DNA of 48,383 bases, taken from a virus. Positions 192 to 48,383 of this stretch are shown one piece after another. The position numbers were made by a program, and so were the translations under genes. The stretch's first letter is position 1; every line of letters begins with the position of its first letter. The notes beneath the pieces are model-generated. The model worked only from the letters and a program-made list of their open reading frames with translations, was not told the DNA's origin and made no database searches. The DNA is taken from positions 1-48,383 of IMG/VR virus record IMGVR_UViG_3300027712_001407, one strand, 5' to 3'.

Positions 192-875
192 CTATAGTAT
201 GAGTTGTTTTAATGATTTATTTGTTTTTTGACTTTCGAGTCTATTTGTTTTAAAAGATCTATAAATATTAATTTTTCTGCTTAAGCCGATATTAATATGA
301 TTTAAAGATTCACATAAATTAATTCTATTTTGTAGATTTGTAAATTCAAATACAGAATAACCATGATCTTTAGTATGAGATGCGTGAGATTTTTTTCTAT
401 CTTTTCTATATAAAGCATATTGAATATCTTTAGATAAACAATATTCTTCTAAGAAATCCCAACTTTGGTTTTTATTTCCATTAAATCCGACGCGAAATAG
501 ATTATTTTTATCTAAAGATACGCTTCCATCTCCATCAAGAAAACCTTTAATAAAAAATGGCTTCATATTTTCTATTAATTTATAAAACAAAGGGCAACCA
601 TTATTTTTATTATGAAATTGATATTCTTTAAAAAATTGCATTTCTGCCTGTTTGGCGGCTCTAATGCAAGATTGGGGTTTTGTTGAGTTTTTTCTAACTC
701 TTGTCGTATATTTTAAAAAGCCGATATCTTGTAATATAGGCCAAATATATAAAAAATCATCTGTTTTAATTTCAAAAGAAAAATTATAATTATTTTTACA
801 TAAGCCAAAATGACAATCCGCCCAAAAATAACCCAAAATATAACAATGTTCCGCTTTACTTAAATCAAATTTCAT
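192..875 (-). CDS. LAGLIDADG-type homing endonuclease
   Basis: A 227-residue protein with two LAGLIDADG-like helices: YILGYFWADCHF near residue 12 and FIKGFLDGDGSV near residue 108. Each ends in the acidic residue expected to bind the catalytic metal. Two copies in one chain fit a monomeric double-motif homing endonuclease that cuts a long specific site and spreads its own gene. It is free-standing: I see no intron or intein sequence around it. It is read against its neighbours and has a TAAATA late-type box at 899-904, 23 nt before the start, so it probably has its own expression programme. The protein is rich in Lys and Asn with AT-rich codons. The family call rests on the two motifs; activity is not shown. 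Confidence 0.85.
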   Translation of the reverse strand: MKFDLSKAEHCYILGYFWADCHFGLCKNNYNFSFEIKTDDFLYIWPILQDIGFLKYTTRVRKNSTKPQSCIRAAKQAEMQFFKEYQFHNKNNGCPLFYKLIENMKPFFIKGFLDGDGSVSLDKNNLFRVGFNGNKNQSWDFLEEYCLSKDIQYALYRKDRKKSHASHTKDHGYSVFEFTNLQNRINLCESLNHINIGLSRKINIYRSFKTNRLESQKTNKSLKQLIL

Positions 876-6713: not shown

Positions 6714-7478
6714 ATGATCGCTTGCAAAGCTACTTATAATTTCAAATGTCTCAATCAAGAGTATAAAATCGGAAAGACTTATACATCTGATAAGTTGGAA
6801 ATCTGTAAACACGGTTTCCACTTCTGTCAAAATATGGAAGATGTATTAGAATATTATCAACCATCAAAAGATTTCGTTCTTCTTGAAATTGAAGTTCTCG
6901 GCAAGATTGAAACGAATAGAGATAAATCCGTTACGGATAAGTTCCGTGTAATTCGTGTAATTCCTTTTGAGGAATATACTGATATCATGAAATCTCGATT
7001 TCCCACCTGTGAATACGATGAAAGGAATAATCTTATTTCTATAACGTATCCAGATTGTGAAAGGCATACCTATGAATACGATGATAGGAATAATCGTATT
7101 TCTGAGACTTATCCAAGTGGTACCAAGTGTATCTATGAATACGATGATAGGAATAATCGTATTTCTACAACGCGTCCAAATGGCGAAAAGTATACCGTTG
7201 AATACGATGAAAAGAATAATCTTATTTCTATGACGTATCCAAATGGTGTCAAGTATACCTATGAATACGATGAAAGGAGTAATCGTATTTCTACGACGAC
7301 TCCAAATGGCGAAAAGTATACCGTTGAATACGATGAAAAGAATAATCTTATTTCTGAGACGCATCCAAATGGTCGCAAGACTACCTTTGAATACGATGAA
7401 AGGAATAATCATATTTCTACGACGTATCCAGATGGTAAAAAGCATACCTTTGAATACGCTAATGTAACTGAAAAATAA
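6714..7478 (+). CDS. YD/RHS-repeat protein, paralogue 1
   Basis: A 254-residue protein in two parts. Residues 1-95 are a conserved head (KATYNFKC, a C-KHGFHFC pattern, DFVLLEIEVLGKIET) seen in many phage proteins; I believe it is the DUF7666-type domain. Residues 96-254 are seven tandem 21-residue repeats of the form YDxxNNxISxTYPxGxKYTYE, the RHS/YD repeat of large bacterial toxin shells. Here they occur without an Rhs core or toxin tip and with no signal peptide. Three close paralogues lie at 22.2, 26.4 and 27.2 kb. The 63-bp DNA repeats should recombine easily. Function unknown; a binding or decoy surface is a guess. Confidence 0.85.
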   Translation: MIACKATYNFKCLNQEYKIGKTYTSDKLEICKHGFHFCQNMEDVLEYYQPSKDFVLLEIEVLGKIETNRDKSVTDKFRVIRVIPFEEYTDIMKSRFPTCEYDERNNLISITYPDCERHTYEYDDRNNRISETYPSGTKCIYEYDDRNNRISTTRPNGEKYTVEYDEKNNLISMTYPNGVKYTYEYDERSNRISTTTPNGEKYTVEYDEKNNLISETHPNGRKTTFEYDERNNHISTTYPDGKKHTFEYANVTEK

Positions 7479-11641: not shown

Positions 11642-12746
11642 TATAGTAAAAACATTTTTAGATACCAACGATCAAGAATTTAATTACAAGCCTGTAATAA
11701 TTCACGGTGATGATTTTTTGTTGATAACACCCAAAACGATGGCAACGAATTGGAATGATCTAAACTGTAATTTCAGAAGTGCTGTGGTCAATCCGATAAC
11801 ATTTCAAACAGTTTCACTTTCGTTCAAAAAGTTTGTTAATTTTTCTGAGCGTCCAGAGTTTCAGCCTTGGAATAATGATTGGAAGTTTACTGCTTTCCAC
11901 AAGCTTGATGGTAGTTTGTTGTGCGTTAGCAAGTATAAAGGTAAACATATCATCCGAACTCGCGGCACTACTGATGCTCGCCAAATGGCAAATGGTAATG
12001 AAATTGATTTTCTTATCAAAAAATATCCTCTCGCATTTGACAATGCATTTCTCAATGCTGAAAATGCATCCTTTCTTTTTGAATGGACTACACCTACCAA
12101 TATCATTTGCCTTCGAGAACACAATGAACCTACACTAACCCTCGTTGGTGCTATCCGTCACTCTAATTATGAATATCTTGATCCTGACACTTTGGATTTT
12201 GTGGGAGGTCATATTAAAATGGCTCGCCCAAATCGTTTTGAATTCAATTCGATCCATGATTGCCTTGCTGAAGTTAAAATGTGGCGTGGTAAAGAAGGAG
12301 TAGTTATTATTTCTCCTGATGGTCAAACCCTAAAGAAAATTAAGGGTGATGAATACTGCCAGATTCATAAGCTGGCTACTGGTATCAAGAATATCAATCA
12401 AGTTCTTGCTGTGTTCTTGGCGTCTCCTAAGTTTACCACAGTTGAAGACTTCCACAAGTATGTCGAAACCACGATTGATTATGAAATTGCTGAGAAGATC
12501 AAGGACGATATGGTGCCTATTGTTGAAGCATACAATAACTATCTCAAGAAGTTTGATCGTGTAAACAACGTGGTCCAGATTGTTAAAGGTATTGAGACTC
12601 GCAAAGAACAAGCTCAAATCATCCAACAGGATCTTCACAACTGGCAGCACGGTCATGCATTCACTCTGCTTGACAATCGGGAATTGTCTGATAAAATGAT
12701 TGAAAACGCTGTTCAGTTTGAACTGGATAAAATTATCAAACAATAA
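11634..12746 (+). CDS. RNA ligase, T4 Rnl1-like
   Basis: A 370-residue protein with motif I HKLDGSL (Lys90 the predicted AMP acceptor), motif III FLFEWTTP near 147, motif IV KEGVVIISP near 222 and motif V LKKIKGDEY near 235, plus a helical C-terminal domain. This is the layout of T4 RNA ligase 1, which reseals the anticodon loop of tRNAs cut by host nucleases such as PrrC. ATG 11634 overlaps the HNH stop. The first 80 or so residues are more AT-rich than the rest, which suggests that this end arrived with the endonuclease. T4 Rnl1 is 374 residues, so the length fits. Confidence 0.85.
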   Translation: MTNIVKTFLDTNDQEFNYKPVIIHGDDFLLITPKTMATNWNDLNCNFRSAVVNPITFQTVSLSFKKFVNFSERPEFQPWNNDWKFTAFHKLDGSLLCVSKYKGKHIIRTRGTTDARQMANGNEIDFLIKKYPLAFDNAFLNAENASFLFEWTTPTNIICLREHNEPTLTLVGAIRHSNYEYLDPDTLDFVGGHIKMARPNRFEFNSIHDCLAEVKMWRGKEGVVIISPDGQTLKKIKGDEYCQIHKLATGIKNINQVLAVFLASPKFTTVEDFHKYVETTIDYEIAEKIKDDMVPIVEAYNNYLKKFDRVNNVVQIVKGIETRKEQAQIIQQDLHNWQHGHAFTLLDNRELSDKMIENAVQFELDKIIKQ

Positions 12747-14124: not shown

Positions 14125-14218
14125 TGCAAACATTTAGGCATGGTGTAAGTAACACATTTCATTTTCTTGAAAAGCTTCTGGATCATACCAGATGCCTAAA
14201 ACATTTTAAATTAAAAAT

Positions 14219-15444: not shown

Positions 15445-17424
15445 ATGAAAACAGGAATCCAAATGAGTCCAACCATTGCAAGTGATGGTCTTAACGGTAG
15501 CGCGATGACAATGAGTGTCAAAGGTGCTGACATGGCGGCGTATTTCTTACGTGACCGTATTTATTCAGATAAGATTCTCGCTCCAATTCGAGAATATATT
15601 TGCAATGCGCTTGATGAACATATCAAGTATAACATTAAAAAGCCTGTTCAAGTAAGCATCATCAAAGATGAAAATAATGAAAATAATGAATATGTTTGGA
15701 AGGTTCGTGATTACGCCAAGGGTCTTGACGAACATAGCATCCGAAACATCTTTGGTATGTATTTCGAAAGCACCAAGAGCGGCAACAACGATCAGATTGG
15801 GGGATTTGGTATTGGTAGTAAGGCATTTCATTGTTACACTGATACATTCTATGTAGACTCTTATTTCAATGGCACTCATACCAAGTATGCTTGTGTTCTT
15901 GGAGGTGGTCAAAAAGGTGTGCCTGTCGGTGAAATCTATTCAATTCATAGTGAACCTACCACCGAAACTGGTATTGAAATCTCAGCATCCATCCCACGAT
16001 TTGATGTTTCCAGTTTTTGTAATAAAACCTCTCTGGTTGTTCGACGCTATTCAAATCCTGATGCTATTGAATACACTGCTGTGTATTCCTCTGGGGGTGA
16101 TGTGGTTAAACCTTTCAAGCCAATCATCACCAAAACAATTGGTAATTATACGCTAAATGCATTTGATGCATCAGACGATGCTGTTGCTGATATATACTCA
16201 ATGCGTTCCAATTATGCTCGTACCCTAATGACGACCAATTGCGTTGCTATTCGAATGGGGGGTGTTGTTTATGAAACCCTGCTTGTCGATTATAACTGCA
16301 ATATGCACGTTGCCGTTGTGATTGACGTTCCAATTGGAACTCTCAGCATTCCAATTTCCCGTGAAGGTATTGAGAAAACCCCAGCGACCGAAAAGGTTTA
16401 CGCTGAAATTCGCAAGATTATTAACGATTTGTGCAATACAGAACGTGAAAGTATCGAAGTGAAACCTTTTGAAGACTATGATACCATCAATTTGTCAAAC
16501 AACGCAGTGGTTGGTGAAATGTTTGAACATAGAACATCCGATATACTTTCTGATACTTTTAACTTTGTTAGGAAAATTACCAAGAGCGCAAATCCAAACT
16601 ACACAGATGGTCCTGCCGTTGATTCAATCAAAGTTACGACTATTTATACAATTCCATTCTCTCGATCCGCTTCAATGTGGTTGAAGCGTTTACGACATAA
16701 AATGTTTGCAGATGAGAAGTTTGCTGGTTTCACTTGGATGTATGAAATTCCAGATGATAAAATGGAAGAATTCAAAAATTCGATCAGTCTTGATATTTCC
16801 AACATCAAGTTTGTTGCAGTCAAGTCTTTGAAGCTTCCAAAGCTTCCATCTGAAACAACTGACAAAAAGAAAGGTAATACCTATGTTGTTTATCGTGGAT
16901 GGGGCAGATCACTTGGAAAATATGACGCTTTTGAATTGTTTACTCTTCAAGCTGCTAAATTTTCTGAGGTTGATTACACAAAGGATAATTGGCATGAGAC
17001 TGTGGATAATATGAATGCGTTGAATGCATTTACTATTGATCTTGTAGAAAATCGTTACAAATACGGGGATCACATTTTGTATGCAAACACCTCAAAGCTT
17101 GTTAATGCTGCTCATCTGATCAATTTCATTAGTGCTGAAAGCAAAGAATACATCGCTGCCAAGAATCGTATCAAAACAGCACTAGATGAACAAAATCGCA
17201 GGGAACGAGTGATGAATGACGTTCGCAATGATGCTATCAACACTGAATACAATTCGCGTGTTGTTAAATATCTAAAGTGTAATCCAGATGCTTCCAAGCG
17301 TCTGATTGACAAGTGTAATAAATTCAAAACGGAAGACAGCACACGGGGTCGTATTCTTCGCCTTATGAACAAGTATCAAACCATTAGTCGTTCTGATTTG
17401 CGAGCTTTGCTCAAATTGCAATAA
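15445..17424 (+). CDS. rIIA: rIIA-like membrane-associated GHKL ATPase
   Basis: A 659-residue protein. The N-terminal 200 residues form a GHKL (Bergerat) ATP-binding fold: N box REYICNALDEH near 50, G1 VRDYAKGLDE near 88, G2 GGFGIGSKAF near 115. The central SIPISREGIEKTP segment is typical of phage rIIA proteins. T4 rIIA (725 residues) and rIIB protect the infected cell from RexAB-type exclusion and affect lysis. The gene is followed by a rIIB homologue, the same order as in T4. No membrane helix is evident. Confidence in the family is good; the exclusion role is taken from T4. Confidence 0.85.
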   Translation: MKTGIQMSPTIASDGLNGSAMTMSVKGADMAAYFLRDRIYSDKILAPIREYICNALDEHIKYNIKKPVQVSIIKDENNENNEYVWKVRDYAKGLDEHSIRNIFGMYFESTKSGNNDQIGGFGIGSKAFHCYTDTFYVDSYFNGTHTKYACVLGGGQKGVPVGEIYSIHSEPTTETGIEISASIPRFDVSSFCNKTSLVVRRYSNPDAIEYTAVYSSGGDVVKPFKPIITKTIGNYTLNAFDASDDAVADIYSMRSNYARTLMTTNCVAIRMGGVVYETLLVDYNCNMHVAVVIDVPIGTLSIPISREGIEKTPATEKVYAEIRKIINDLCNTERESIEVKPFEDYDTINLSNNAVVGEMFEHRTSDILSDTFNFVRKITKSANPNYTDGPAVDSIKVTTIYTIPFSRSASMWLKRLRHKMFADEKFAGFTWMYEIPDDKMEEFKNSISLDISNIKFVAVKSLKLPKLPSETTDKKKGNTYVVYRGWGRSLGKYDAFELFTLQAAKFSEVDYTKDNWHETVDNMNALNAFTIDLVENRYKYGDHILYANTSKLVNAAHLINFISAESKEYIAAKNRIKTALDEQNRRERVMNDVRNDAINTEYNSRVVKYLKCNPDASKRLIDKCNKFKTEDSTRGRILRLMNKYQTISRSDLRALLKLQ

Positions 17425-19718: not shown

Positions 19719-19945
19719 AAAAAGCATCTGTAGCTTATGCTGAAATATTTGATATTCAGCTTAATGAGCATAAGAGTTTAATCAAAGAAATCGAAAAGGC
19801 AATTGACGCTGCAATTGTAAAAGGAGAAACTGATACGTATATCAAAGAAGGGATTCCTATTCCAGTTGTAACAATGATGAGGGATTTATATGGTTATACT
19901 TTTCGCAAATCTGGACGTGGCTACAATATTAGCTGGGATTCTTAA
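19715..19945 (+). CDS. small hypothetical protein
   Basis: A 76-residue helical protein overlapping the NADAR stop by 4 nt (ATGA). No family recognised; it may be co-translated with NADAR. Confidence 0.55.
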   Translation: MKKASVAYAEIFDIQLNEHKSLIKEIEKAIDAAIVKGETDTYIKEGIPIPVVTMMRDLYGYTFRKSGRGYNISWDS

Positions 19946-19949
19946 ACAT

Positions 19950-20276
19950 ATGAAACAAGAACAATACATTCACATTAACGAATACGGAGATAAGCGTTAC
20001 TACAAAGATCGAAAGATGCACATGCTTCACCGCCTTGATGGACCAGCGATTGAATGTGCTGATGGATATAAATCATGGTGGATTGATGGGCGACCTCATC
20101 GCCTTGATGGACCAGCGATTGAATATGCTTGTGGATATAAAGCGTGGTATGTTGACGGGAAACTTCTATCAGAAAAACAGTTTAATGCTCTTACGGCACC
20201 AATAATTGAATTGACTCTTGAGCAGATTGCAGCTAAGTTTGGTGTTGATGTGAGTAAGATTAAGATCAAGAAGTAA
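19950..20276 (+). CDS. HRLDGPA-repeat protein, copy 1
   Basis: A 108-residue protein: a head (EQYIHINEYGDKRYYKDRKM), two 23-residue repeats of the HRLDGPAxExADGxKxWYVDG type, and a conserved tail (LSEKQFNALTAP, then LTLEQIAAKFGVDVSK). The repeat resembles MORN-like beta hairpins seen in many phage and giant-virus proteins. ATG 19950 opens the head conserved in the two following copies; the in-frame start at 19890 would overlap the previous gene. Confidence 0.75.
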   Translation: MKQEQYIHINEYGDKRYYKDRKMHMLHRLDGPAIECADGYKSWWIDGRPHRLDGPAIEYACGYKAWYVDGKLLSEKQFNALTAPIIELTLEQIAAKFGVDVSKIKIKK

Positions 20277-20292
20277 GAAACACAATAAAATT

Positions 20293-20757
20293 ATGCAACA
20301 AGAACAATACATTCACATCGACGAATATGGTAACAAGCGTTACTATAAAGACCTAAAGATGACCATTCGCCATCGACTTGATGGACCAGCGGTTGAATTC
20401 GCTGATGGAAGTAAATCATGGTATGTTGATGGGCGACCTCATCGCCTTGATGGACCAGCATTTGAAGGTGCCGACGGAAGTAAAAGATGGTGTGTTGATG
20501 GGCGACCTCATCGGCTTGATGGACCAGCGGTTGAATTCGCTGATGGAAGTAAATCATGGTATGTTGATGGGCGACCTCATCGGCTTGATGGACCAGCAAT
20601 TGAATGCGCTGATGGATATAAAGCATGGTATGTTGACGGCAAATGTCTAACTGAAAAACAGTTTAATGCTCTAACTGCACCAGCATTAGAATTGACATTG
20701 GAAGATATTGCAAGTAAGTTTGGTGTTGATGTGAGTAAAGTGAAAATCAAAAAGTAA
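20293..20757 (+). CDS. HRLDGPA-repeat protein, copy 2
   Basis: A 154-residue paralogue of copy 1 with four 23-residue repeats (69-bp DNA units, two nearly identical) between the same head and tail. The extra repeats are the only major difference, which points to expansion by unequal recombination. Function unknown. Confidence 0.75.
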   Translation: MQQEQYIHIDEYGNKRYYKDLKMTIRHRLDGPAVEFADGSKSWYVDGRPHRLDGPAFEGADGSKRWCVDGRPHRLDGPAVEFADGSKSWYVDGRPHRLDGPAIECADGYKAWYVDGKCLTEKQFNALTAPALELTLEDIASKFGVDVSKVKIKK

Positions 20758-20764
20758 GAAATAT

Positions 20765-21085
20765 ATGGAAGAACAATACATTCACATCGACGAATATGGT
20801 AAGATTTACTACAAAGACCGAAAGATGACCATTCGTCATCGGCTTGATGGACCAGCAATTGAAGGTGCTGAGGGAGGTAAAGCATGGTATGTTAATGGGC
20901 AACGCCATCGCCTTGATGGACCAGCGGTTGAAGGTGCTGATGGATGTAAATTATGGTATGTTGATGGGCAACGTCTATCTGAAGAACAGTTTAATGCTCT
21001 AACTGCACCAGCATTCGAATTGACTCTTGAAGAGATTGCTGCTAAGTTTGGCGTTGATGCGAGCAAGATTAAGATCAAGAAGTAA
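20765..21085 (+). CDS. HRLDGPA-repeat protein, copy 3
   Basis: A 106-residue paralogue with two repeats and the same tail ending KIKIKK. Seven nt separate it from copy 2. Confidence 0.75.
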   Translation: MEEQYIHIDEYGKIYYKDRKMTIRHRLDGPAIEGAEGGKAWYVNGQRHRLDGPAVEGADGCKLWYVDGQRLSEEQFNALTAPAFELTLEEIAAKFGVDASKIKIKK

Positions 21086-22205: not shown

Positions 22206-22230
22206 TAAAACATTGCACCAGACTACAAAC
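22206..22230 (+). promoter_or_regulatory. AAACATTG promoter cassette, YD-family variant 2
   Basis: One base differs in the box (AAACATTG at 22208-22215); the rest, CACCAGACTACAAAC then ATG, is as in paralogue 1. Confidence 0.7.
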
Positions 22231-22935
22231 ATGATTGCATACAAAGCTACTTATAATTTCAAATGTCGTAATCAAGAGTATAAAGTTGGAAAGACTTATA
22301 CATCTGATAAGTTGGGAATTTGTAAACACGGTTTATATTTCTGTCAAAAGATGGAAAATGTATTAGAATATCACAACCCATCAAAAGATTTCGTTCTTCT
22401 TGAAATTGAAGTTCTCGGCAAGATTGAAACGAATGGAGATAAATCCGTTACGAATAAGTTCAAGGTTCTACGTGTGATTCCTTTTGAGGAATATACTGAT
22501 AGTGTGAAATCTCGATTTACCACCTGCGAATACGATGAAAAGAGTAATCTTATTTCTGAGATGCATCCAGATGGTAGTAAGTATACCTATGAATACGATG
22601 AAAAGAATAATCGTAAATCTATGACGTATCCAAGTGGTACCAAGTGTATCTATGAATACGATGATAGGAATAACATGATTTCTGAGACATATTCACACGG
22701 TAAAAGGTATACCTTTGAATACGATGATAGGAATAACATGATTTCTGAGACACCTTCACATGGTAAAAATTATACCTTTGAATACGATGATAGGAATAAT
22801 AAAATCTCTACGACATCATATCCAGAGGGTAAAAAGTATACCTATGAATACGATGAAAGGAATAATAAAATCTCTACGACATATTCAAATGGTGTCAAGA
22901 TTACTTATGCGCCTGCGGTGATCACCGAGGAATAA
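22231..22935 (+). CDS. YD/RHS-repeat protein, paralogue 2
   Basis: A 234-residue paralogue: the same 95-residue head followed by six YD repeats, one of which is 22 residues instead of 21 (TTSYPEGKK). The C-terminus differs from the others (APAVITEE). ATG 22231 matches the other family members; the in-frame ATG at 22213 lies inside the promoter. The stop overlaps the next promoter box. Confidence 0.82.
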   Translation: MIAYKATYNFKCRNQEYKVGKTYTSDKLGICKHGLYFCQKMENVLEYHNPSKDFVLLEIEVLGKIETNGDKSVTNKFKVLRVIPFEEYTDSVKSRFTTCEYDEKSNLISEMHPDGSKYTYEYDEKNNRKSMTYPSGTKCIYEYDDRNNMISETYSHGKRYTFEYDDRNNMISETPSHGKNYTFEYDDRNNKISTTSYPEGKKYTYEYDERNNKISTTYSNGVKITYAPAVITEE

Positions 22936-26398: not shown

Positions 26399-27163
26399 AT
26401 GATTGCATACAAAGCTACTTATAATTTCAAATGTCGTAATCAAGAGTATAAAGTTGGTAAGACTTATACATCTGATAAAATGGAAATTTGTAAACATGGT
26501 TTTCACTTTTGTCAAAAGATGGAAAATGTATTAGAATATTATCAACCATCAAAAGATTTCGTTCTTCTTGAAATTGAAATTCTCGGCAAGATTCAAACGA
26601 ATAGAGATAAATCCGTTACGGATAAGTTCCGTGTAATTCGTGTGATTCCTTTTGAGGAATATACTGATAGTGTGAAATCTCGATTCCCCACCTTTGAATA
26701 CGATGAAAGGAATAATCTTATTTCTGAGACTTATCCAAGTGGTACCAAGTGTATCTATGAATACGATGATAGGAATAACATGATTTCTGAGACATATTCA
26801 CACGGTGACAAGTATACCTATGAATACGATGAAAAGAATAATCGTATTTCTACAACGTATTCAAATGGTGACAAGCATACCTTTGAATACGATGAAAAAA
26901 ATAATCGTATTTCTGAGACTTATCCAAATGGTGAGAAGTATACCTTTGAATACGATGAAAAGAATAATCGTATTTCTACGAAGCATTTAGATGGTGACAA
27001 GCATACCTTTGAATACGATGATAGGAATAATAAGATTGCTGAGACATATCCAAATGGTGACAAGTATACCTATGAATACAATGAAAAGAATAATCGTATT
27101 TCTGAGACTTATCCAAGCGGTATCAAGTATACCTATGAATACACCAATGTAACTGAACAATAA
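26399..27163 (+). CDS. YD/RHS-repeat protein, paralogue 3
   Basis: A 254-residue paralogue with the common head and seven 21-residue YD repeats, ending YTNVTEQ. The head is nearly identical to paralogues 1 and 2, while the repeats are shuffled among the copies. It lies directly upstream of paralogue 4. Confidence 0.85.
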   Translation: MIAYKATYNFKCRNQEYKVGKTYTSDKMEICKHGFHFCQKMENVLEYYQPSKDFVLLEIEILGKIQTNRDKSVTDKFRVIRVIPFEEYTDSVKSRFPTFEYDERNNLISETYPSGTKCIYEYDDRNNMISETYSHGDKYTYEYDEKNNRISTTYSNGDKHTFEYDEKNNRISETYPNGEKYTFEYDEKNNRISTKHLDGDKHTFEYDDRNNKIAETYPNGDKYTYEYNEKNNRISETYPSGIKYTYEYTNVTEQ

Positions 27164-27185: not shown

Positions 27186-27950
27186 ATGATCGCATACAAA
27201 GCTACTTATAATTTCAAATGTCTTAATCAAGAGTATAAAATCGGAAAGACTTATGCATCTGATAAAATGGAAATTTGTAAACACGGTTTTCACTTTTGTC
27301 AAAAGATGGTAGATGTATTAGAATATTACAAACCATCAAAAGATTTCGTTCTTCTTGAAATTGAAGTTCTCGGCAAGATTGAAACGGGAACCACTAAGTG
27401 TGTTACGGATAAGTTCCGTGTAATTCGTGTGATTCCTTTTGAGGAATATACTGATAGTGTGAAATCTCGATTTCCTACCTTTGAATACGATGAAAGGAAT
27501 AATCTTATTTCTGAGACTTATCCAAGCGGTATCAAGTATACCGTTGAATACGATGAAAAGAATAATCGTATTTCTGAGATGCATCCAAATGGTAGCAAGA
27601 CTACCTTTGAATACGATGAAAAGAATAATCGTATTTCTACAACGTATTCAAATGGTGACAAGTATACCTGTGAATACGATGATAGAAATAATAAGATTGC
27701 TGAGACTTATCCAAATGGTGCCAAGTATACCTATGAATACGATGATAGGAATAATCTTATTTCTGAGACGCTTCCAAATGGTACCAATCATACCTATGAA
27801 TACGATGATAGAAATAATAAGATTGCTGAGACATATCCAAATGGTGACAAGTATACCTATGAATACAATGAAAAGAATAATCGTATTTCTACAACGCGTC
27901 CAGATGGTACCAATTATACCCATGAATACGCCAATGTAACTGAACAATAA
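27186..27950 (+). CDS. YD/RHS-repeat protein, paralogue 4
   Basis: A 254-residue tandem neighbour of paralogue 3 with seven YD repeats ending YANVTEQ. A four-residue change in the head (GTTKC for NRDKS) sets it apart. The pair is a recent tandem duplication that includes the promoter. Confidence 0.85.
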   Translation: MIAYKATYNFKCLNQEYKIGKTYASDKMEICKHGFHFCQKMVDVLEYYKPSKDFVLLEIEVLGKIETGTTKCVTDKFRVIRVIPFEEYTDSVKSRFPTFEYDERNNLISETYPSGIKYTVEYDEKNNRISEMHPNGSKTTFEYDEKNNRISTTYSNGDKYTCEYDDRNNKIAETYPNGAKYTYEYDDRNNLISETLPNGTNHTYEYDDRNNKIAETYPNGDKYTYEYNEKNNRISTTRPDGTNYTHEYANVTEQ

Positions 27951-29287: not shown

Positions 29288-29379
29288 GGGCGTGTGACCA
29301 GAATGGTTAATGGCCCGTTTTCATAAAGCGGTATGGATATGAAAGTCCTTTGTGGGTTCGAGTCCCACCGCGCCCACCA
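29288..29379 (+). tRNA. tRNA with anticodon CAU and a long variable arm
   Basis: 92 nt including an encoded ACCA end. The acceptor stem GGGCGTG pairs with CGCGCCC (one G-U). The anticodon arm is CCGTT/TTCATAA/AGCGG with all five pairs and U33, giving CAU. The T arm GTGGG/TTCGAGT/CCCAC is perfect. Between them lies a 20-nt variable region with a small stem (GGAT/GTCC). The D arm is weak and position 26 seems to be missing. A long variable arm marks Leu, Ser or Tyr tRNAs, none of which normally reads CAU. Amino-acid identity is therefore uncertain. Confidence 0.8.
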
Positions 29380-43210: not shown

Positions 43211-43733
43211 TTATTGACTTGCATATGTCCACATATACCCATTGCAAGTTTTTCTTTTATTTTTACAACATCCTACTATACTAGCCCTATTTAGGTTTAA
43301 GCTATTAGCAATTTCCTGAGCCGAAGTCCACGTTTTTATAAATTCTCCTGATAATGAATATTGATTTACTTGTTTTCTAGTGGTTGGAACTCTTCCAAGT
43401 TCTCTGAAACCATGTAATACATTTTCTTGATGAGTGACCCACTCTAAATTATCAAGTCTATTGTCATCACGTTTGCCGTTTTTGTGGTTTACAATTAAAT
43501 TAGGATTAGTATTTGGTAGGAACGCAAGAGCTACTAATTTATGCACACTATGGGTTTTTGATTTATTGTCTTTAGACAGTTTTATCCTCAAATATCCCTT
43601 TTTTTGTTTTTGAAGGAGACATCAAAACTGACTTATCAGATTTTTTATAGGTCAATGATAATATATTTCCATAATTTGACACCATGTATTTTTCTTCATA
43701 ACCTATTATAGGTTTCCATAATTCATTTGTCAT
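43211..43733 (-). pseudogene. HNH endonuclease (NUMOD4-HNH-NUMOD1), frameshifted
   Basis: Read with one frame change, this encodes about 173 residues. The first part (from ATG 43733) has a NUMOD4 block, LWKPIIGYEEKYMVSNYGNI. The second has the HNH core (KLVALAFLPN, IVNHKNGKRDDNRLDNLEWV) and a NUMOD1 DNA-binding tail (TWTSAQEIANSLNLNRASI). The two parts are in different frames; the break falls at a run of seven A and three G (43596-43605 on the + strand as CCCTTTTTTT). One base too many would explain it. The second part alone has an ATG at 43591 and may still be made, but without NUMOD4. Confidence 0.8.
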
Positions 43734-47566: not shown

Positions 47567-47857
47567 TAGCCGTGGTCGGACTCGAACCGACAAGCCCAAG
47601 GGCGGCAGATTTTCTTACCACTATAGTTTTCACTACCTACACAATGTATAGTTTGTGGTCTGGACTATCCCTTGATCATAACTTTCGTCTTAGATCCTCG
47701 CCGTCTAGTCTCTACACCTTCCTTATTACTAAGGCTTGGCTCGGGATTGGCATTTTAAAGCGTTCCCCGAATTTGACGAGTTACATCTATAAAGTTTCCC
47801 CTATAGAGCTCAATTTATCTTATAAGTCTGCTGTGTTTACCATTTCACCACACGGCC
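47567..47857 (-). tRNA. tRNA-Leu(UAA) split by a group I intron
   Basis: Exon 1 is 47824-47857 (34 nt) and exon 2 is 47567-47613. Spliced, the tRNA has acceptor GGCCGTG/CACGGCT, a D arm with G10-C25, U11-A24 and G12-C23, an anticodon arm GCAGA/CUUAAAA/UCUGC with anticodon UAA, a variable arm (GCCC/GGGC) and a T arm GTCGG/TTCGAGT/CCGAC. A73 is present but CCA is not encoded. The anticodon only becomes UAA when the intron between U34 and A35 is removed. Confidence 0.93.
47614..47823 (-). ncRNA. group I intron (210 nt) in tRNA-Leu(UAA)
   Basis: The intron starts after the U of the anticodon and ends in G, as group I introns do. Core parts in order: P2-like TCTATA/TATAGA; P4 TCGGG/CCCGA; P6 CCTTA-GTAA-TAAGG; the R-like block GGTGTAGAGACTAGACGG; P7 GACTA/TAGTC; P9 TAGT-GAAA-ACTA; final GGTAAG. 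The order and wording closely follow the cyanobacterial/plastid tRNA-Leu intron (AATCCCGAGCCAAGCC, GGTG-AGAGACT-GACGG, AGTCC). No open frame is inside, so it has no endonuclease of its own. Confidence 0.92.
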
Positions 47858-48357: not shown

Positions 48358-48383
48358 TGGTACACCTGGCGAGATTCGAACTC
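48358..48383 (-). tRNA. 3' end of another tRNA, cut by the window edge
   Basis: On the minus strand the edge gives GAGTTCGAATCTCGC (T arm), then CAGGTGT (acceptor 3' strand), A73 and CCA. The anticodon lies outside the window. Confidence 0.75.

Follow-up and report, generated by a model that had tools for sequence, protein, structure and literature searches.

A compact group I intron in the tRNA-Leu(UAA) gene of a phage contig and its relatives in other phage tRNA genes

The single viral contig IMGVR_UViG_3300027712_001407 from IMG/VR (positions 1-48,383 of the record; the full 48,383-nt stretch is referred to here as the window) carries on its minus strand, at 47857..47567, a gene for tRNA-Leu(UAA) with 210 nt inserted into its anticodon, between U34 and A35. 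Because of its structure and its fit to the exons, we consider it very probable that this element is a compact, splicing-competent group I intron. Introns of this kind interrupt the anticodon loops of many different phage tRNAs, and together they form a large family that has received little notice. The window is likely to derive from a T4-like phage, because the structural gene adjoining the intron tRNA has its nearest proteins in T4-like cyanophages (57.5% identity) and because rIIA/rIIB, RNA ligase, and ThyX are also encoded.

The intron and its exons

The 5' exon (tRNA positions 1-34; 47824..47857, on the minus strand like all features of this gene) runs GGCCGTG...GCAGACUU and ends with ...GACUU, the last base being anticodon U34. 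The intron (47614..47823) ends with a G and is devoid of an open reading frame (ORF). The 3' exon (A35-A73; 47567..47613) runs AAAAUCUGC...CACGGCUA and comprises the long variable arm, the T arm, and discriminator A73. ARAGORN without its intron option reports no tRNA at 47857..47567; in intron mode it calls tRNA-Leu(taa) at c[47566,47858] with an intron of 210 nt, which agrees exactly with the site, length, and coordinates given in the original prediction, made from the sequence alone. When the exons are joined in silico, they are recognized as a normal tRNA-Leu(taa), in line with the expectation that the tRNA would be unusable until spliced. The Rfam group I covariance model RF00028 matches 47833..47640 over its full length (model positions 1-253) with 68.2 bits (E 2.6e-15), well above the curated cut-off of 50 bits. 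No second group I match to this model was found elsewhere in the window.

Membership in group I is further indicated by the presence of a P3-P9 core, by a 5' splice site after a U that is paired to a guide G, and by the terminal G. The guide sequence UUGAG (47809..47813) serves both exons. Its GAG (47811..47809) pairs with exon CUU to form P1, with a U34.G13 wobble at the splice site (G13 corresponds to 47811), and its UU (47813..47812) pairs with exon A35A36 to form P10. The window intron was aligned with 35 other phage introns, and for 27 of the 43 predicted pairs both sides are changed, with pairing kept, in at least one sequence. Compensatory changes affect all seven pairs of the P2 hairpin (47788..47805) and all six pairs of P3 (5' strand 47775..47780, 3' strand 47702..47697). 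The same alignment supports the P4-P5 arm (47741..47770), the P6-P6a arm (47716..47740), P8 (47674..47696), and the P9 region (47617..47659), which consists of an outer helix ACCAC/GUGGU and an inner hairpin. P4, P6, and P9, as named in the original prediction, are supported by covariation; P7, which it also named, was assigned by hand. The strands of this guanosine-site helix (GACU, 47707..47710; AGUC, 47666..47663) are identical in all 36 introns, so that the covariation test covers the other helices. A chance match or a mis-folding is ruled out by the RF00028 score together with the covariation.

Splicing is envisaged as follows. The pre-tRNA would be transcribed with the intron, and folding would place exon 5'-CUU on guide GAG, with U34 opposite G. 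GTP would attack after U34, and the freed U34 would then attack after the terminal G of the intron, with P10 aligning the 3' exon. Joining of the exons would produce a normal UAA anticodon loop.

Related introns in phage and bacterial tRNA genes

A pattern built from the 3' part of the intron and the Leu 3' exon was searched in viral contigs and in bacterial and archaeal genome contigs. It matched at least 120 stretches in the former and at least 117 in the latter. After in silico joining of the exons, 113 of the 128 viral loci and 102 of the 117 loci in genome contigs scored as tRNA-Leu(taa). The tRNA-Leu(UAA) introns of these viral stretches, at least 120 in number, have cores nearly identical to that of the window intron, as do those of LR756501 and Agrobacterium phage Atu_ph07 (see below), and the 30 introns nearest to it by identity are all viral. 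With the same pattern but a 3' exon that does not begin with A, at least 120 additional viral stretches were obtained, mostly representing anticodon loops of other tRNAs. A unique phage case is thus ruled out, and the original view that such an intron would be unusual in a phage tRNA does not hold. A set of 19 viral loci that had been typed as 'Tyr(ATA)' by script was assigned to Leu(UAA), the stem being mismatched, and was re-cut for tree calculation.

Among GenBank phages, the intron is present in tRNA-Leu(UAA) of LR756501 (735 kb), LR756511 (595 kb), and Agrobacterium phage Atu_ph07. In Atu_ph07 the intron is unannotated, a hypothetical protein being assigned to its place, and the genome paper never uses the word 'intron'. 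LR756501.1 has a second group I intron at 718159-718390 on the minus strand (L253), which scores higher (96.1 bits) than its tRNA-Leu intron and for which ARAGORN detected no surrounding tRNA. Another observation concerns 22 intron-bearing phage tRNAs with a UAA anticodon (L108, L109, L114, L123, L124, and 17 other viral loci), which have a short variable loop (at most 6 nt), unlike normal Leu tRNAs. An intronless UAA-anticodon tRNA with a short variable loop is found in contig L002 (2861-2938).

Insertion sites among the matches listed were CAU 33|34 (29 cases), Arg-UCU 34|35 (28) and 33|34 (7), Asn-GUU 35|36 (21), Lys-UUU 34|35 (7), Leu-UAA 33|34 (5), Thr-UGU 34|35 (2), and a few more. Further GenBank cases are LR756508, with introns in Lys and Arg tRNAs, Klebsiella jumbo phage OU509535 (CAU), and Microcoleus phage My-WqHQDG, where an intron-containing Arg-CCU gene is annotated as a 286-nt tRNA. 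The guides covary with their exons: Asn introns carry GCAG for exon CUGU and Thr introns ACGAG for CUU|GU. The match of each guide to its exons was scored over P1 and P10, independently of the procedure that located 5' splice sites, with shuffled exons as control. Own exons reached a mean of 4.34 compared to a shuffle maximum of 3.64 (200 shuffles, 208 distinct introns). Upon omission of Leu 34|35, the values were 3.95 and 3.10 (500 shuffles, 68 introns).

Contig L003 contains both a Leu and an Asn intron, about 4.9 kb apart (17016-17218 and 12155-12353). For the Asn intron, ARAGORN had proposed tRNA-Thr(GGU), which we replaced by tRNA-Asn(GUU) because U35.G, P1 CUGU/GCAG, G73, and the U1-A72 pair fit Asn. 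Two or three intron tRNAs of different isotypes are seen in single phage contigs in L003, L369, L375, and LR756508 (L410). When the exons of tRNA-Arg(UCU) from L377 are joined, their match to a tRNA-Arg of Synechococcus phage S-SZBM1, which has no intron, runs through the predicted junction; the S-SZBM1 gene probably represents the empty site of this intron.

Relatives of the window intron were found in many bacterial phyla. In four of five bacterial genomes, an intronless tRNA-Leu(UAA) was not found (the pattern may miss copies and the genomes may be incomplete); either a CAA isoacceptor or nothing matched the pattern for intronless tRNA-Leu. This suggests that splicing is needed in these genomes. 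At 10 bacterial loci, mostly from Alphaproteobacteria (L138, L178, L194, L228, L155, L186, L212, L230, L172, and L201), an ORF considered integrase-type upon reading of the sequence by eye rather than by family search ends about 80-145 nt upstream of the intron-containing tRNA-Leu(UAA). The arrangement would fit an integrated element that either contains the intron tRNA or lies next to it at these loci. In Bradyrhizobium lablabi, an additional intronless copy is located across the integrase from the intron-bearing one.

Mobility, descent, and alternative explanations

Introns of at least 400 nt, mostly about 650-950 nt, were encountered at 30 viral and 23 genome loci. They often contain an ORF with an HNH end (LELHHINGN...LCPNCH); all four ORFs tested match Pfam HNH or HNH_3, with two of the four exceeding the HNH cut-off. 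The tRNA-Leu intron of LR756511 carries an HNH-type ORF, and in a relative, L014, the sequence after the P6-P6a arm is closely preceded by the end of the HNH ORF. The 210-nt window intron contains neither an endonuclease ORF nor an HNH gene, as had been predicted, and the puzzle of its spread, raised at the same time, is largely answered by the HNH endonucleases in introns of the same family. Both intron-containing and intronless alleles exist, since a 27-base pattern over the 5' exon and the insertion site retrieved the viral loci L006, L010, and L011 with intron and L007-L009 without.

We propose that the window intron belongs to a mobile family, with transfer among the tRNA genes of phages and bacteria. 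Members that encode HNH would home into intronless tRNAs. ORF-less members, including the window copy, may be kept since splicing renders them nearly neutral, and may spread via recombination of tRNA loci or with help in trans. An occasional guide change would allow an intron to occupy another tRNA, after an anticodon-loop U. We infer mobility by HNH homing for the relatives and only indirectly for the ORF-less window copy.

L003 and L011 share with the window the structural gene that adjoins the intron tRNA, with flanks being 65-69% and the tRNA-intron 80-84% identical. A closer relative is L002, with 82-94% DNA sequence identity to the window across collinear blocks. Its 82-kb contig has no match to RF00028 and carries tRNA-His and other tRNAs at the place of the intron tRNA. 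L002 was ruled out as a clean intron-minus allele because the locus holds different tRNAs and thus changed as a block. The resulting picture is one of long maintenance in a phage lineage, accompanied by locus turnover.

Several points weigh against the interpretation as a splicing-competent member of a re-targeting family. Splicing in vivo and its chemistry are deduced from sequence comparison. As a general model for group I introns, RF00028 does not single out subgroup IC3, and the hand-assigned P7 is invariant. Since 5' splice sites were located under the requirement that a U precede the intron, the rule of insertion after U follows in part from the procedure itself. The CAU 33|34 introns show the poorest guide fit, and own exons are rarely the top-scoring set. 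Finally, all collection counts are pattern-based and represent lower bounds, not frequencies.

The original prediction had assigned the intron to the ancient cyanobacterial/plastid type. Site and class are indeed shared with the cyanobacterial intron, which is supported by the data, while descent from that lineage is weakly indicated. If a phage had directly captured the tRNA-Leu(UAA) of a cyanobacterial host with its ancestral plastid-type intron, the identical insertion site would be explained, and the similarity of the structural protein to T4-like cyanophages makes a cyanobacterial host possible. A tree was computed from 163 introns, including 10 cyanobacterial tRNA-Leu introns; its phage and bacterial rows had been gathered by a pattern that is mostly missing from cyanobacterial copies. 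In the best tree, the window intron pairs with viral L010 (support 100/95), and the cyanobacterial introns form a separate 100/100 clade on a long branch. Phage introns are interleaved with bacterial introns, and at least 24 target changes are required. An approximately unbiased (AU) test that held the window intron and the cyanobacterial clade together did not reject this arrangement (p 0.36), with rows chosen by that same pattern. Given the tree and the exclusively viral nearest neighbors, direct capture is unlikely. 

That the intron is decayed and splicing-dead, and its tRNA a pseudogene, is highly improbable. The missing ORF would be consistent with decay, and phages can lose tRNAs, L002 having other tRNAs at this place and no detectable group I intron in the contig. 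Yet every core helix is intact, as are the guide, P10, and the terminal G; the exons give a full tRNA, and the locus is kept in relatives despite diverged flanks. Likewise unlikely is a benefit to the carrier: until splicing, the intron might screen the anticodon loop against anticodon nucleases, or it might break the DNA target of a homing enzyme or integrase. The introns resolved in this analysis sit in anticodon loops, and some targets, such as Lys-UUU, are loops attacked by host nucleases. The integrase-type ORFs next to 10 bacterial copies also fit. However, the mature tRNA is exposed once spliced, intronless phage alleles are common, and a selfish element accounts for the pattern. 

Returning to the proposed mobile family, we tentatively suggest a broader view, in which phages might be a main reservoir of mobile group I introns that seek anticodon loops, re-target tRNA isotypes by guide change, move between phages and bacterial chromosomes, and leave many phage tRNAs unseen by standard annotation. 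Shielding against host enzymes, either of the tRNA gene or of the anticodon, may account for part of their success.

Other features of the window and comparison with known systems

At its right end (48360-48383, minus strand) the window truncates another tRNA, of which the T arm and acceptor end are visible; therefore, the tRNA cluster extends past the contig end. Default ARAGORN calls at 14133-14202 (tRNA-???) and 29288-29379 (tRNA-Met) are below the Rfam tRNA cut-off and likely to be spurious. Two free-standing endonuclease-like ORFs are found at 43211-43591 and 192-875 (both minus strand), one being HNH_3/NUMOD-like and the other having a weak LAGLIDADG_3 match under the cut-off. The ORFs at 6714-7478, 22213-22935, 26399-27163, and 27186-27950 are paralogous and contain tandem repeats of the type YEYDDRNNxISETYPNG. 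A second repeat family (HRLDGPAIEYADGYKAWYVDG) occurs at 19890-21085.

According to the review by Hausner et al., 2014 (PMC3984707), all phage introns then known were in protein genes, despite the many tRNAs of phages. This compares to more than 200 phage tRNA introns over several isotypes reported here. In tRNA inventories prepared without an intron search such genes are missed, as exemplified by default ARAGORN on the window and by the 'hypothetical protein' of Atu_ph07. Intron-bearing phage tRNAs are mentioned for Lak phages (PMC8346664) and for jumbo phages with altered codes (PMC13037316); the passages concerned do not name group I, ribozyme, guide, or HNH. A description of phage tRNA group I introns was not found in searches of one open library, which is not proof of absence. 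The guide-exon covariation across tRNAs provides a natural record of ribozyme target change, and the existence of HNH-bearing and ORF-less introns together with intron-plus and intron-minus alleles makes the spread of tRNA introns testable in phage crosses.

The introns of td, nrdB, sunY, and the SPO1 polymerase gene are likewise phage-borne group I introns, often linked to homing endonucleases, but they interrupt mRNA, whereas the window intron interrupts a tRNA anticodon. In bacteria, group I introns are known from tRNA-Ile(CAU) of Azoarcus, tRNA-Arg(CCU), and tRNA-fMet; introns in Arg-CCU and Met-CAU were also recovered by ARAGORN in intron mode. Like the phage family, the bacterial introns are located in the anticodon loop and have about 200-300 nt. 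The phage family differs in target or site (Leu-UAA 34|35, CAU 33|34, Arg-UCU 34|35, Asn-GUU 35|36, Lys-UUU 34|35). The Anabaena-type intron of cyanobacterial tRNA-Leu shares with the window intron the gene, the U34/A35 position, which is the intron site in cyanobacteria and plastids, the group I core, and the lack of an ORF. The window intron is distinguished by being phage-borne, by its length of 210 nt compared to 225-312 nt in the cyanobacterial sample, and by its placement in a separate clade in the best tree.
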